From Deltaproteobacteria bacterium (lineage in GTDB: Bacteria > Desulfobacterota > Desulfobaccia > Desulfobaccales > Desulfobaccaceae): a stretch of DNA of 54,811 bases. Location: contig JAFDGA010000014.1 of assembly GCA_019309545.1 (NCBI GenBank), positions 1 through 54,811 of the forward strand, in the 5' to 3' direction. Shown piece after piece: positions 2,894 through 45,591 of the stretch; position 1 is the stretch's first letter; the number at the start of each line of letters is the position of its first letter. A program made the position numbers and the translations under genes. Under the pieces are notes generated by a model. It did no database searches. It saw nothing but the letters and a program-made list of their open reading frames with translations, and was not told the DNA's origin.

Positions 2894-3280
2894 TCAGCGC
2901 CCCCCGGCCTTGGCAATCTTTTCCCGCTGCGACTGACACTCCCGACACAAGGAAGTCTGGGGCATGATTTCCAGCCGCCGGGGTTCAATGGGTGCGCCAC
3001 AGTCTTCGCAGAAACCATAGGTGCCATTATCCATCCGAATTAAGGCTTCTTCGATGGCCATAAGTTCCTGGCGTTTGGGTTCGATAAGGGAAAATTGGGT
3101 CTCTTCCAGGAGGTTGGCCAAGGCCTGATCTTCGTTATCCCGGACAGTAGACAGGAGATCCTGGTAGCTTTCTCCTAAACCAGTCTTGATCTGGGTCTTG
3201 ACCTCTTGCCATAATTTGCGTTTGCGCTCCAGCAGACGCTCCCGCAATTCCGTCAGCTTCTGGGGGTCCCTAACTGTCAT
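2894..3280 (-). CDS. DksA/TraR-family C4 zinc-finger protein
   Basis: About 128 residues: an N-terminal helical coiled-coil region followed by a C4 zinc finger (CEDC near residue 95, then CREC about 20 residues later). Family members bind the RNA polymerase secondary channel and modulate initiation with (p)ppGpp. Two ATGs are possible, at 3286 and 3280. The GGAG at 3289-3292 is 2 bases from the first and 8 from the second, so 3280 is preferred. The gene lies just downstream of an rpoD-like sigma gene on the same strand (54-base gap). Whether it is the true DksA cannot be told, because several paralogues are usual. Confidence 0.85.
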   Translation of the reverse strand: MTVRDPQKLTELRERLLERKRKLWQEVKTQIKTGLGESYQDLLSTVRDNEDQALANLLEETQFSLIEPKRQELMAIEEALIRMDNGTYGFCEDCGAPIEPRRLEIMPQTSLCRECQSQREKIAKAGGR

Positions 3281-3334
3281 GATCATTTCTCCAATAAGCG
3301 GATAAATCAGGCAGTTTAAGTTCTGTTCCCGCGG

Positions 3335-41308: not shown

Positions 41309-43732
41309 TTATTCTTCTGTCTCTCCTCCCAGGCTTTTCTCCTCTTTCATCATTTCCCGAGCCGTTTCCATCAGTTGCCGCAGTTTCTGGTCCACCCGGC
41401 AATTAATTGTATCGGGTTCAAAGCCGCCCTCGGGCAGCTTAGCGCCCGCCTTCATGCCAGTCAGAATCTCCAACGCCTCGTTCACATGGCCTACCGCCCA
41501 AACATGAAATTTCCCCTCCCGGACCGCGTCCACCACTTCTTTTTTCAGCATCAAATCCTGAACATTGGCCTTGGGGATAATCACTCCGTGGGTGCCGTCC
41601 AGTCCCCGGGCTTTACAGACCTTGTAGAACCCCTCGATCTTCCAATTGACCCCGCCAATGGGCTGAAACTCACCGCGCTGGCTGACCGAGCCGGTGACCG
41701 CAATATTTTGGGCCAGAGGAACCTCAGCCAGGCAGGAGATCAGGGCCAAGAGTTCGGCCCCGGAGGCGCTGTCCCCTTCCACCATGCCATAACTCTGCTC
41801 AAAACAGAGGCTGGCCGACAGGGTCAGGGGCTTGTCCTGGGCAAAACAGCTCTTGAGATAGCCGGAAAGAATCATCACCCCTTTGGTATGAATATTGCCG
41901 GAAAGTTTGGATTCCCGCTCAATGGCCACTACTCCCTCTTTGCCCAAAGAGACTGCGGCGGTGATCCGACTGGGGCGCGCAAAGGCGTGATCGCCTAACA
42001 TATAGACTGACAGCCCATTGACCTGGCCCATTATCGCGCCGCTGGTTTCGATGGTAAGCATGCCTTCCTGAATAAATTCCTGCAATTTCTCTTCGGGCAA
42101 ATCAGAGCGGTAAATCTTTTCGGCAATGGCCTTTTCCATATCCTCGGCCCGGATGACGTCATGGCCATTGGTACCGGCCCAGAAATTAGCCTCTTTCAGA
42201 ATGGCCGCCACCTCAGCCAGTTGCAGGGTAAGCTTTTCTTTATGGCCGGCCAGTTCACCCGAATATTCTACCAGGCGGGCAACCCCGGTTTTGTGGACCG
42301 CCCGGAGCTTCTCTTTCTCGCAATAACTCCTCAAGAAGGCCGAGAATTTTTGCAGATGTTCCGGGGTCCGCCGCATCTCCCAGTCAAAGTCGGCTTTGAC
42401 CTTAAACAGCTTGTGCAGATCTTCATCATAGGTATAAAGCAACTGGTAGAGCAGCGGGCTGCCGGTTAAAATGACCTTGACTTTCAAAGGGATTGGTTCA
42501 GGGTGCAGGGTCTTGGTGGTGATCAGACCCAGTTGTTCTCCCAGATCCTCAATCTTTATCTCCTGATTTTTCAAGGCCCGTTTTAGTGCTTCGTAGGAAA
42601 AATACCATTTCAATAGATCCAAGGCATTGATGATCAGATAACCGCCATTGGCCCGGTGTAAGGCCCCGGGGCGGATCAGGGTAAAATCGGTTACCAAGGC
42701 CCCGAATTGGGCCCGGCGTTCGATGCCGCCGAAAAGATTGGGATAGGTGGGGTTATTTTCCAATACCACCGGGGCCCCTTTGGTCTCCGAATGGTCAATA
42801 AAGACGTTTACCCGATATTGGATAAAACTGGGTTCAGGGACGGGAATTGGAAAGGGCGTCGGGGTGGTTCCCGGCCGCCGTTTCAGGTCGTCGATATTTT
42901 TCAGGATATCTTGCTCAACCTGGCGTAAATATTCGGTAACCTCGGTATAACCATGGTATTTTTCGATCAGCTCTTCAATCCGGTGCCCCACTACATAAAG
43001 GGCGACATTTTGGTCGAGTTGTTTTTCTTGGGACTCGAACTCCTTCTCCATCTTTCGGATTTTATGTAAAGCCTCGGTCATCTCGGCGTGCAAGGCATTG
43101 GACTTCTGACGTAATTCCTCCCGTTCGGCGTCGCTCAGAGCCTTTAGTTCCTCTTCCCCCATGGGTTTGCCATCTTTACCGGGAACAATCATCAATCCGG
43201 TCTGGGAGACATTAAGAATAAAACCCTCGGCACTGGCCTTATGGTCCAACTCCTGGAGTATGGCATTTCTCTCTTGGTTGAACTTACGCACCAGGGCCTC
43301 TCGCCGTGAGGTGTAGTCTTCGCTCTCAAAGACCTCGGGAATTTGCACCCTTAGTGTGGAAATTAACTCATCTAAATCGTTTTGCAGTCCCTTGCCCTTG
43401 CCCGTCGGCAGTTTCAGGGCCCGCGGTCTTTCAGGCTCTTTAAAATTATAGACGTAAACATAATCAGGCGGGGGCTCTTCCTGAGAAGCCAGCTCGTCCA
43501 CATAGGCTTTGATCATCTCGACTTTGCCGGTCCGGGCCAGGCCTACCACGAAAATATTGAACTCTGGGTCTTTCATCCCCAGGCCGAATTCCAGAGCGTG
43601 ACGGGCACGATATTGCGCCACCACCTTATCCACCAGGGGTTTAACCTCATTAGTGGTTTCAAATCCTAATGAGTCGGGATCACAAACCGTGCGCAGGTCG
43701 TCTGGCTTCAATTCCCAATCAGTACGTGACAT
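41309..43732 (-). CDS. LonB-like ATP-dependent protease
   Basis: 807 residues. An N-terminal region with a relaxed Walker A (GLARTGKV, ~64-71) is followed by a long inserted helical region (~170-270). An AAA part (~330-520) has the ARPSR and ANGGYLI features of this family. The Lon-type protease domain holds Ser655 in EGDSASGAE and Lys698 in GGVNWKIEG, the 43-residue spacing of the Lon catalytic dyad. It is a soluble cousin of Lon with quality-control activity assumed. AGGAGG precedes its ATG. It appears monocistronic, and a broken efflux gene lies just upstream on the same strand. Confidence 0.9.
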   Translation of the reverse strand: MSRTDWELKPDDLRTVCDPDSLGFETTNEVKPLVDKVVAQYRARHALEFGLGMKDPEFNIFVVGLARTGKVEMIKAYVDELASQEEPPPDYVYVYNFKEPERPRALKLPTGKGKGLQNDLDELISTLRVQIPEVFESEDYTSRREALVRKFNQERNAILQELDHKASAEGFILNVSQTGLMIVPGKDGKPMGEEELKALSDAEREELRQKSNALHAEMTEALHKIRKMEKEFESQEKQLDQNVALYVVGHRIEELIEKYHGYTEVTEYLRQVEQDILKNIDDLKRRPGTTPTPFPIPVPEPSFIQYRVNVFIDHSETKGAPVVLENNPTYPNLFGGIERRAQFGALVTDFTLIRPGALHRANGGYLIINALDLLKWYFSYEALKRALKNQEIKIEDLGEQLGLITTKTLHPEPIPLKVKVILTGSPLLYQLLYTYDEDLHKLFKVKADFDWEMRRTPEHLQKFSAFLRSYCEKEKLRAVHKTGVARLVEYSGELAGHKEKLTLQLAEVAAILKEANFWAGTNGHDVIRAEDMEKAIAEKIYRSDLPEEKLQEFIQEGMLTIETSGAIMGQVNGLSVYMLGDHAFARPSRITAAVSLGKEGVVAIERESKLSGNIHTKGVMILSGYLKSCFAQDKPLTLSASLCFEQSYGMVEGDSASGAELLALISCLAEVPLAQNIAVTGSVSQRGEFQPIGGVNWKIEGFYKVCKARGLDGTHGVIIPKANVQDLMLKKEVVDAVREGKFHVWAVGHVNEALEILTGMKAGAKLPEGGFEPDTINCRVDQKLRQLMETAREMMKEEKSLGGETEE

Positions 43733-43753
43733 TTGTCCTCCTGAGGATTAAAC

Positions 43754-44127
43754 CTAAATAGCTTTAGAAAGCCTGGCTGGACCAAGTTTTCTTTCCGGCT
43801 CGTGATCCTCAAAACAATGATTCAAAGATGAAACGGCCGGGCAATGGTTACTTTCCCCTTCGAGCTGGATGGTGGTATGCTCCAGACCGAACCTTTCTCG
43901 AAGCACCTCGTTGAGTTCCTTGAGAATATCATCCCGATCTCGGGAGTCTTTGACTAGCGCCTTAATACTGAGGGCATAGAATCCGCTGGTAATGGTCCAG
44001 GTATGGAGATCTTGAATCTGACAGATTCCCGGGACCTCTCGGATAGCCGATTGGACCTCAGCCAGATCAATGTGCCGCGGGTGGCCTCCATATGAATTTC
44101 GCAGGCTTCCCGAACCGTTTCGGTCAT
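43754..44127 (-). pseudogene. Cation diffusion facilitator C-terminal domain, frameshifted
   Basis: On the minus strand, ATG 44127 overlaps the Gre gene's TGA (ATGA) and encodes METVREACEIHMEAT-like sequence. Reading then needs a one-base change in a CCC run (44079-44081) to continue as PRHIDLAEVQSAIREVPG, DLHTWTITSGFYALS and ERFGLEHTTIQLE, the cytoplasmic metal-binding domain of zinc and iron efflux CDF proteins. It ends at TAG 43754-43756. The six-helix membrane domain is absent, so this is a remnant. Free-standing CDF C-terminal proteins exist, but the frameshift argues against function. Confidence 0.8.
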
Positions 44128-44603
44128 GTATTACCCATCTGAATTTCCAGAATTTGATATACTCTCAGTCCACCAGGAGTCTGAATCCGGATCTGATCGC
44201 CGACGGCCCGCCCCAACAGGGCCCGGCCAACAGGAGAAGCTATCGACAGGCGGCCTTGCTGTGCATCGGACTCCTCTTCCCCTACTAGCTGAAAGCTTAG
44301 AATCTGTCCGGTCAACAGGTTGCGAATCCGCACCTGGGAATTGAACACCGCCCGGGTTGGAGCCAGGTTGCTGCCGACCAGCACTTCTGAGTTGGCCAGC
44401 GTTTGTTGTAAATGCTGGATACGGCGCTCCACCTGGACCTGGCGAGACCGAGCCTCCAAGTATTCGGTATTTTTCTCGAGTCGGCCATCCTGAGCCGCTT
44501 CCATTACTTCCGATAGAGTTTGGGGACGCACTACCTGGCTTAGCTGCCGCAATTCCTGGAGCAGTCTCTCATACCCAGCCCGGGTTAGCAAAGCCTTAGT
44601 CAT
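44124..44603 (-). CDS. GreA/GreB-family factor lacking the catalytic acids
   Basis: 159 residues. The N-terminal coiled coil spans 1-75 and the globular C-terminal domain 80-157 (SPVGRALLGRAVGD, TPGGLRVYQI). Gre factors enter the RNA polymerase secondary channel and use two acidic tip residues (Asp41, Glu44 in E. coli GreA) to hold Mg2+ for transcript cleavage. At the same numbered positions this protein has Arg41 and Lys44 (DGRLEKNTEY against HGDLKENAEY). It could therefore be a non-cleaving antagonist or regulator of initiation. ATG 44603 follows a promoter at 44676-44704. The overlapping downstream frame is a dead efflux gene. Confidence 0.85.
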   Translation of the reverse strand: MTKALLTRAGYERLLQELRQLSQVVRPQTLSEVMEAAQDGRLEKNTEYLEARSRQVQVERRIQHLQQTLANSEVLVGSNLAPTRAVFNSQVRIRNLLTGQILSFQLVGEEESDAQQGRLSIASPVGRALLGRAVGDQIRIQTPGGLRVYQILEIQMGNT

Positions 44604-44704: not shown

Positions 44705-44973
44705 GATCGACTCAGGAAATTCATACGGATTTTTTCCTCAGGAGGTGCCCGTTCTTTACCTCAAGAACTCTCGCCGGGGCTGCCTCCTCTTAAATCAACC
44801 TGTTAAAGGCTCGGCGTAATATACCTGTTGCTGACCCCCTTAAACCAAAATCCTTGACCTTACCCAATGGCTTAATTTATTCTGTTTACAAAAAAGTAAT
44901 CCTGGGAAGGCAAAGATCCCGACATTCAAGACCGGACTAATAAAATCAGCAAGCCTATTTTTAAGGAAGTGTG
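44705..44973. other. Divergent intergenic region, small hairpin only
   Basis: No ORF or RNA gene is recognisable between the Gre-family gene and the methyltransferase. A GTTCTT-TACCTC-AAGAAC inverted repeat lies near 44752 and T/A-rich sequence near 44860-44960, where the plus-strand promoter should be. Confidence 0.4.
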
Positions 44974-45591
44974 ATGTTTTACCGGCTTGCCCCCCAGTTA
45001 ATTATCCGCTCCCGATGGCGACCGTATCGGCGTCGGCCCGGCGATCGGGTTTTGGTGGTGCAAGCCCGGTCAGCCTTCCCTCCCAGCCATCCCACCACCC
45101 AGTTGTGTCTGGAACTGCTGGCCGCGGCCTTGGTGGAACAGCCAGCCGCCAGTCTGCTGGATGTTGGTTGCGGCTCCGGAATATTGGCCCTGACCGGGGC
45201 CCGATTGGACATTCCTTTTAATGTGGGTATCGATTTATCAGCACCGGCCATCCAGGTAGCCCAGGAAAATGCCCGGCACAATCAGATGACCGGCCTGGTA
45301 CACTGGCTGCAGGGTTCAACCGAAGCCCTTCGGAGCCATTTTGAGCTGATTATGGCTAACCTGCCCTGGAAGGTCCTGATGGATAAGGTTATAGAATTAC
45401 AACGCTTGTCAACCCCTGGGGGCCGGTTAATCCTGTCCGGCTTCCGGGAAACCCAGGAAGAGACCCTGTTGAACCTCTACCTGAACCAGGGCTGGCAATT
45501 ATATCGGCGAGCCACGTTGGACCGCTGGGAAATCGAGCTACCCGCGGAACGAAGTTTCACCTGGGTGGGACTTGCTCTGCGTTACCGATGA
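44974..45591 (+). CDS. SAM-dependent methyltransferase (PrmA/HemK-like)
   Basis: 205 residues, class I methyltransferase fold. SAM motif I is LLDVGCGSGILAL (~64-76), the acidic end of strand 2 is GIDLS, and motif IV is MANLPWK, an NxPx-type motif as in enzymes that modify amino groups or glutamine. The N-terminal ~60 residues are basic with many Arg. The substrate is not assignable. ATG 44974 is preferred to GTG 44971 because AAGGAAG lies 4 bases from the ATG. It is convergent with a stress-protein gene across a shared hairpin. Confidence 0.8.
   Translation: MFYRLAPQLIIRSRWRPYRRRPGDRVLVVQARSAFPPSHPTTQLCLELLAAALVEQPAASLLDVGCGSGILALTGARLDIPFNVGIDLSAPAIQVAQENARHNQMTGLVHWLQGSTEALRSHFELIMANLPWKVLMDKVIELQRLSTPGGRLILSGFRETQEETLLNLYLNQGWQLYRRATLDRWEIELPAERSFTWVGLALRYR

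Follow-up and report, generated by a model that had tools for sequence, protein, structure and literature searches.

The gre locus and its product

The window, as we call the whole stretch of 54,811 nucleotides analysed here, encodes a protein of the Gre family, members of which normally assist RNA polymerase (RNAP) in cutting back stalled RNA (Table 1). The gre gene is read from the minus strand, and the plus strand across 44124-44603 carries many stops. Gene order at the locus corresponds to that usual in Desulfobaccales, gre > CDF > LonB, the CDF gene being reduced here to a remnant. A full-length CDF gene (PF01545 and PF16916) is present in congener G001 (L034:1471-2458), and in genome G002 no CDF gene was found to separate gre from LonB.

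Table 1. Features of the window discussed in the text
Feature	Position	Strand	Basis
gre, 159 aa	44124..44603	-	ORF with ATG start, stop included; Pfam PF03449 and PF01272
N-terminal coiled coil, gre residues 5-74	44382..44591	-	PF03449 match; DSSP on model (helices 8-39 and 46-70)
Coiled-coil tip, gre residues 38-48, QDGRLEKNTEY	44460..44492	-	Alignment; conservation statistics
gre D41 to R	codon 44481-44483	-	Alignment
gre E43 gained	codon 44475-44477	-	Alignment
gre E44 to K	codon 44472-44474	-	Alignment
C-terminal RNAP-docking domain, gre residues 84-155	44139..44354	-	PF01272 match; residue counts
CDF cation-efflux remnant, C-terminal part	43741..44130	-	Short open stretch from an ATG, then a broken frame; sequence read
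LonB-like AAA+ protease, conserved neighbour 3' of gre in the order	41309..43732	-	Pfam; synteny
PrmA-like methyltransferase, divergent, upstream of gre in part of the order	44971..45591	+	Pfam; synteny
DksA/TraR-family protein, presumably also a secondary-channel factor	2894..3286	-	ORF; Pfam

Both Pfam Gre domains were matched far over cutoff (N-terminal, 1.3e-19; C-terminal, 5.3e-22) and stand in the order found in GreA and GreB, which the protein also resembles in length, although it falls below every NCBIfam GreA/GreB cutoff (144.6 versus 167 for the best). The AlphaFold2 model (mean pLDDT 90.7) comprises two long helices, a tip loop at residues 40-45 and a C-terminal domain, and superposes on GreA with a TM score of 0.92 at 1.3 Å; against Gfh1 the score is 0.85 for the RNAP-bound form and 0.43-0.47 for the free crystals. 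The docking motif around S121-P125-G127-L130-G132 (E. coli numbering) is intact, and its residues are conserved across the Gre genes of the order. With both domains, the motif and the predicted GreA fold in place, the earlier note was right to describe the coiled coil and C-terminal domain as intact. Identity as Rnk, which has a short coiled coil, was rejected, the coiled coil here being full-length.

The tip aligns without a gap to E. coli GreA (1grj), G40-D41-L42-K43-E44-N45 becoming G40-R41-L42-E43-K44-N45, with G40, L42, N45, E47 and Y48 kept. Counting from Met1 of the window protein gives identical numbers for R41 and K44, which bears out the initial observation that Arg and Lys stand exactly where GreA has Asp41 and Glu44. 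Since the tip is gap-free and its register unshifted by indels, a misalignment masking the acids was excluded. Position 43 is Glu in the window protein, Lys in E. coli GreA and Ser in most.

The only Gre of the genome and of the order

The genome that holds the window is 99% complete with 0.1% contamination and has one PF03449 and one PF01272 match over cutoff, both of which are the window gre. We sampled 29 Desulfobaccales genomes from 11 genera (the named records of the order being metagenome-assembled), which yielded 25 readable Gre genes. PF03449 was matched exactly once in 26 of these genomes, not at all in three and twice in none; all but one of the 22 high-quality genomes have a Gre. 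A second, canonical greA, which the earlier note had suggested looking for, was found neither in the window's own genome (both Gre domains searched) nor in the genomes of the order (N-terminal domain searched). The one candidate for a hidden copy in the window's own genome, C34, scored 15.6 bits (E = 0.04), below cutoff, and consists of a partial domain in a 537-aa frame that lacks a C-terminal Gre domain. The window gene is thus the sole Gre, and so its product is not an accessory inhibitor.

Elsewhere in the phylum, ten genomes gave no match to the Gre N-terminal domain (G037, G039, G040, G058, G065, G072, G074, G076, G077 and G094). They are mostly complete and belong to families f11, f13, f14, f32 and f39, with one from f43; the trigger loop and bridge helix of RNAP are ordinary-looking in this Gre-less group.

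Loss of the tip acids and selection on the protein

No Gre gene of the order (0/25) encodes an acid at position 41 and only one (G015, tip RVEEN) has an acid at position 44, whereas D41 and E44 are present in 47 of 47 canonical GreAs, as is N45. An assembly error or a mutation of a single strain is thereby excluded. Within the window gene's own family the RLEKN tip is fixed (6/6, both congeners included), and N45 and Y48 are retained. The conservation of Arg41 and Lys44 in relatives, which the earlier note had asked to check, accordingly holds for the family and beyond a single assembly, but not for the order, where each occurs in 17 of 25 genes and the constant feature is the loss of D41 and, in 24 of 25, of E44. 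Arg or Lys occupies both sites in 16 genes, leaving nine with no basic residue at one or both, and one subclade has none at 41 or 44. The second family of the order is made up of 12 genes with a mostly basic tip and seven with scrambled tips (GLPSPP, GFEAG, GLAEPG), the latter forming one clade.

The order has also gained acids nearby, at position 43 in 24 of 25 genes (including six of the seven with otherwise scrambled tips) and at position 39 in 23 of 25; none of 30 canonical GreAs has an acid at either. Mean net charge over residues 39-48 is -1 in the window family and -1.7 in the sister family, compared with -2.9 in canonical GreA. The two catalytic acids are indeed replaced by basic residues in the window protein, but with Glu43 and Asp/Glu39 gained and the net charge still negative, to speak of charge reversal, as the earlier note did, is an overstatement: the charge of the tip is not inverted.

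Pairwise identity across the tip (residues 38-48) is 88.8% in canonical GreA of the phylum, ranking second of 142 segments. The figure falls to 47.5% (rank 122) across the order and to 42% (rank 139) for the scrambled-tip clade, while identity over the rest of the coiled coil and over the C-terminal domain of the order stays at 58-72%. Comparison of the window gre with its two congeners gave a pN of 0.10, a pS of 0.52-0.53 and a dN/dS of about 0.12, with a pN of 0.03-0.05 in the tip. The canonical constraint on the tip is gone from the order. Conserved helices and C-terminal domain, a low dN/dS and a poorly conserved tip together indicate a protein under purifying selection outside the tip that is maintained, yet not for the canonical catalytic site.

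This pattern also speaks against a vestige, that is, a protein that has lost canonical GreA function and is drifting toward a pseudogene. The scrambled tips of one subclade (seven genomes) would fit such decay, but a gene kept in 26 of 29 genomes with open frames, together with the dN/dS and the conservation of helices and C-terminal domain given above, makes it very improbable.

Comparison with known factors

The window Gre shares with GreA and GreB the fold, both domains, the docking motif and the N45/Y48 pair of the tip, and differs from them in lacking D41 and E44. Gfh1, the anti-GreA factor of Thermus and Deinococcus, coexists with GreA, whereas no working GreA stands beside the window Gre in its own genome or in any genome of the order with a match. 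A GreA fold without cleavage has been demonstrated for Gfh1 and is proposed here for the window protein; Gfh1 keeps acidic residues at its tip (PMC4598747), whereas the acids of the window Gre are replaced, and the window Gre is closer to GreA (phmmer, 86 bits) than to Gfh1 (62). Rv3788 of Mycobacterium tuberculosis is another Gre homologue without cleavage activity, as the window Gre is proposed to be, but it keeps the two acids and lacks the Asn/Tyr pair, the reverse of what is found here (PMC3132773). In archaeal TFS4, of the TFIIS/TFS family of Sulfolobus, lysines took the place of the acids and the factor became an inhibitor (PMC5715097). TFS4 thus resembles the window Gre as a secondary-channel factor in which an acidic catalytic pair has given way to basic residues, and differs from it in its unrelated fold, its three tip lysines and its status as a paralogue beside a working TFS1.

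Probable function

On present evidence we put at about two in three the probability that the sole Gre of Desulfobaccales is a GreA-folded, cleavage-incompetent factor that modulates RNAP by occupying its secondary channel. The Gre of the order has, in other words, probably become a non-cleaving, polymerase-binding regulator; binding to RNAP, loss of cleavage and the direction of any effect are all inferred. The suggestion that the protein is a regulator and not a rescue factor therefore remains the most likely reading, with the difference that, as the sole Gre, it has no canonical GreA beside it to which it could be an accessory inhibitor. The C-terminal domain would dock on the rim helices of the RNAP beta' subunit and the coiled coil would insert into the secondary channel, presenting a tip that would have no carboxylate at the two positions holding the second Mg ion and the attacking water. 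Since the tip lacks both, the protein would act through occupancy. It would compete for the channel with factors of the DksA type and could influence the trigger loop, transcription initiation or complexes that have backtracked.

Mutants of other Gre proteins are informative here. In E. coli GreA, substitutions of D41 and E44 (E44K among the isolates) generally abolish cleavage while leaving RNAP binding intact, inhibit elongation at high concentration and affect recombination more strongly than deletion does (PMC3078854), and overexpressed D41A/E44Y GreA is deleterious (PMC7527559). In the Gre of M. tuberculosis (MtbGre), D43N, equivalent to a change at D41, abolishes cleavage, whereas E46R, equivalent to one at E44, still permits it (PMC3132773). 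Arg41 is therefore the decisive change, and only the loss of D41 carries full weight. The MtbGre equivalents of N45 and Y48 have been tied to binding of backtracked RNA (PMC3132773), and since both residues are kept in the window family, its Gre may still engage backtracked complexes. Their retention would count against a pure occupancy factor, which should need neither.

The acids gained at positions 43 and 39 keep alive an alternative in which catalysis has been relocated, the tip still stimulating cleavage through the new Glu43, with Asp/Glu39, in place of Asp41 and Glu44. Their near-universal presence in the order and absence from canonical GreAs, the survival of the acid at 43 in six of seven scrambled tips and the retained N45 and Y48 would all suit this explanation, and a carboxylate in a shifted position could partly stand in for the lost pair. 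It is nonetheless unlikely: loss of the D41 equivalent alone abolishes MtbGre activity (PMC3132773), the register is unshifted, with no indel in the tip, and the tip is among the least conserved stretches of the protein in the order, unlike a catalytic site. Alternatively, Arg41 and Lys44 could themselves be the active element, contacting the active-site acids of RNAP or the backtracked RNA and thereby switching off the polymerase in the manner of TFS4, whose action depends on its tip lysines (PMC5715097). The fixation of RLEKN in the family, basic residues at both sites in 16 of 25 genes of the order and the low tip pN within the genus agree with such an inhibitor. Against it, in nine of the 25 members position 41, position 44 or both are not basic, the net charge of the tip remains negative, and an inhibitor both potent and constitutive would, as the sole Gre, need tight control, of which we saw no sign, so that we consider active inhibition through the basic residues quite unlikely.

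RNA polymerase and DksA in Desulfobaccales

If the sole Gre is non-cleaving, as we favour, transcript cleavage in Desulfobaccales would be left to intrinsic hydrolysis by RNAP, with DksA limiting misincorporation. Cyanobacteria likewise lack a canonical cleavage factor, and changes in the trigger loop and bridge helix of their RNAP raise intrinsic hydrolysis (PMC7026648). We searched for such compensation at F773, N792, A940 and G1136 and saw none of the cyanobacterial changes (F773V, N792D, A940V, G1136Q) in Desulfobaccales, which at these four positions resemble relatives that have canonical GreA; the Thr at position 940 is common to those relatives. A separate observation concerns the Desulfobaccales rpoC genes (L099-L122), which encode a stretch with a His (EQSYHVAR or EQSVHVAR) after the N-terminal part of the trigger loop, where most relatives have EQTTLEAR or EQSTLEAR.

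The DksA-like protein of the window, aligned to DksA (1tjl; query residues 42-122 on chain residues 63-143), keeps the acidic tip D-x-x-D-x-A, its D50, D53 and A55 aligning with D71, D74 and A76 of DksA, and DksA/TraR-family zinc-finger matches occur in all 29 genomes of the order. Together with ppGpp, DksA raises fidelity by slowing misincorporation (PMC4330370), and we infer that it may substitute for cleavage in Desulfobaccales.

Origin and significance

A search across 395 genomes of the phylum revealed a Gre paralogue in four other families (f38, f71, f91 and f63; L239-L252, L255 and L259). Like the Desulfobaccales gene, it has no Asp41 and carries the motif [SC]E[IV]xVG after the coiled coil; unlike it, its tip is mostly GVKxDN (GVKxDNQQY) and its genomes contain a second Gre match, which in G064, where that gene was read, is canonical. 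A protein tree from all alignment columns joined the Desulfobaccales Gre to this paralogue (support 98/91), and once the tip and EVLVG columns were dropped the grouping was lost, yet not rejected (p-AU 0.278). Synteny gave no sign of common origin, the order having gre-CDF-LonB and nearly all readable f38, f71 and f91 loci a NUDIX hydrolase gene directly upstream of gre on the same strand. Descent of the Desulfobaccales Gre from the D41-less paralogue is possible. With rather more doubt than confidence, the argument can be carried further: Desulfobaccales may have no cleavage factor at all, their sole Gre being a dedicated non-cleaving regulator of RNAP that goes back to an ancient GreA paralogue without D41, one still present next to canonical GreA in several further families of the phylum.

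Among the matches listed in a GTDB scan (80 loci), every readable tip outside the order has both D and E. No viral homologues of the window Gre were found, nor was any description of the Desulfobaccales Gre without D41 and E44 in the open-access literature searched.

Non-cleaving factors of this kind are already known from Gfh1 and TFS4, and what is unusual here is that a probable one is the sole Gre of an order. The well-studied non-cleaving relatives TFS4, Gfh1 and Rv3788 each occur alongside a factor that does cleave, whereas Desulfobaccales possess no Gre other than the catalytically altered one. The trigger loop and bridge helix of their RNAP are ordinary-looking. The label "GreA" carried by the Desulfobaccales genes probably misstates their function. 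The order makes it testable which roles Gre has for RNAP besides cleavage, and how bacteria cope with backtracking with neither a cleavage factor nor RNAP changes of the cyanobacterial type.
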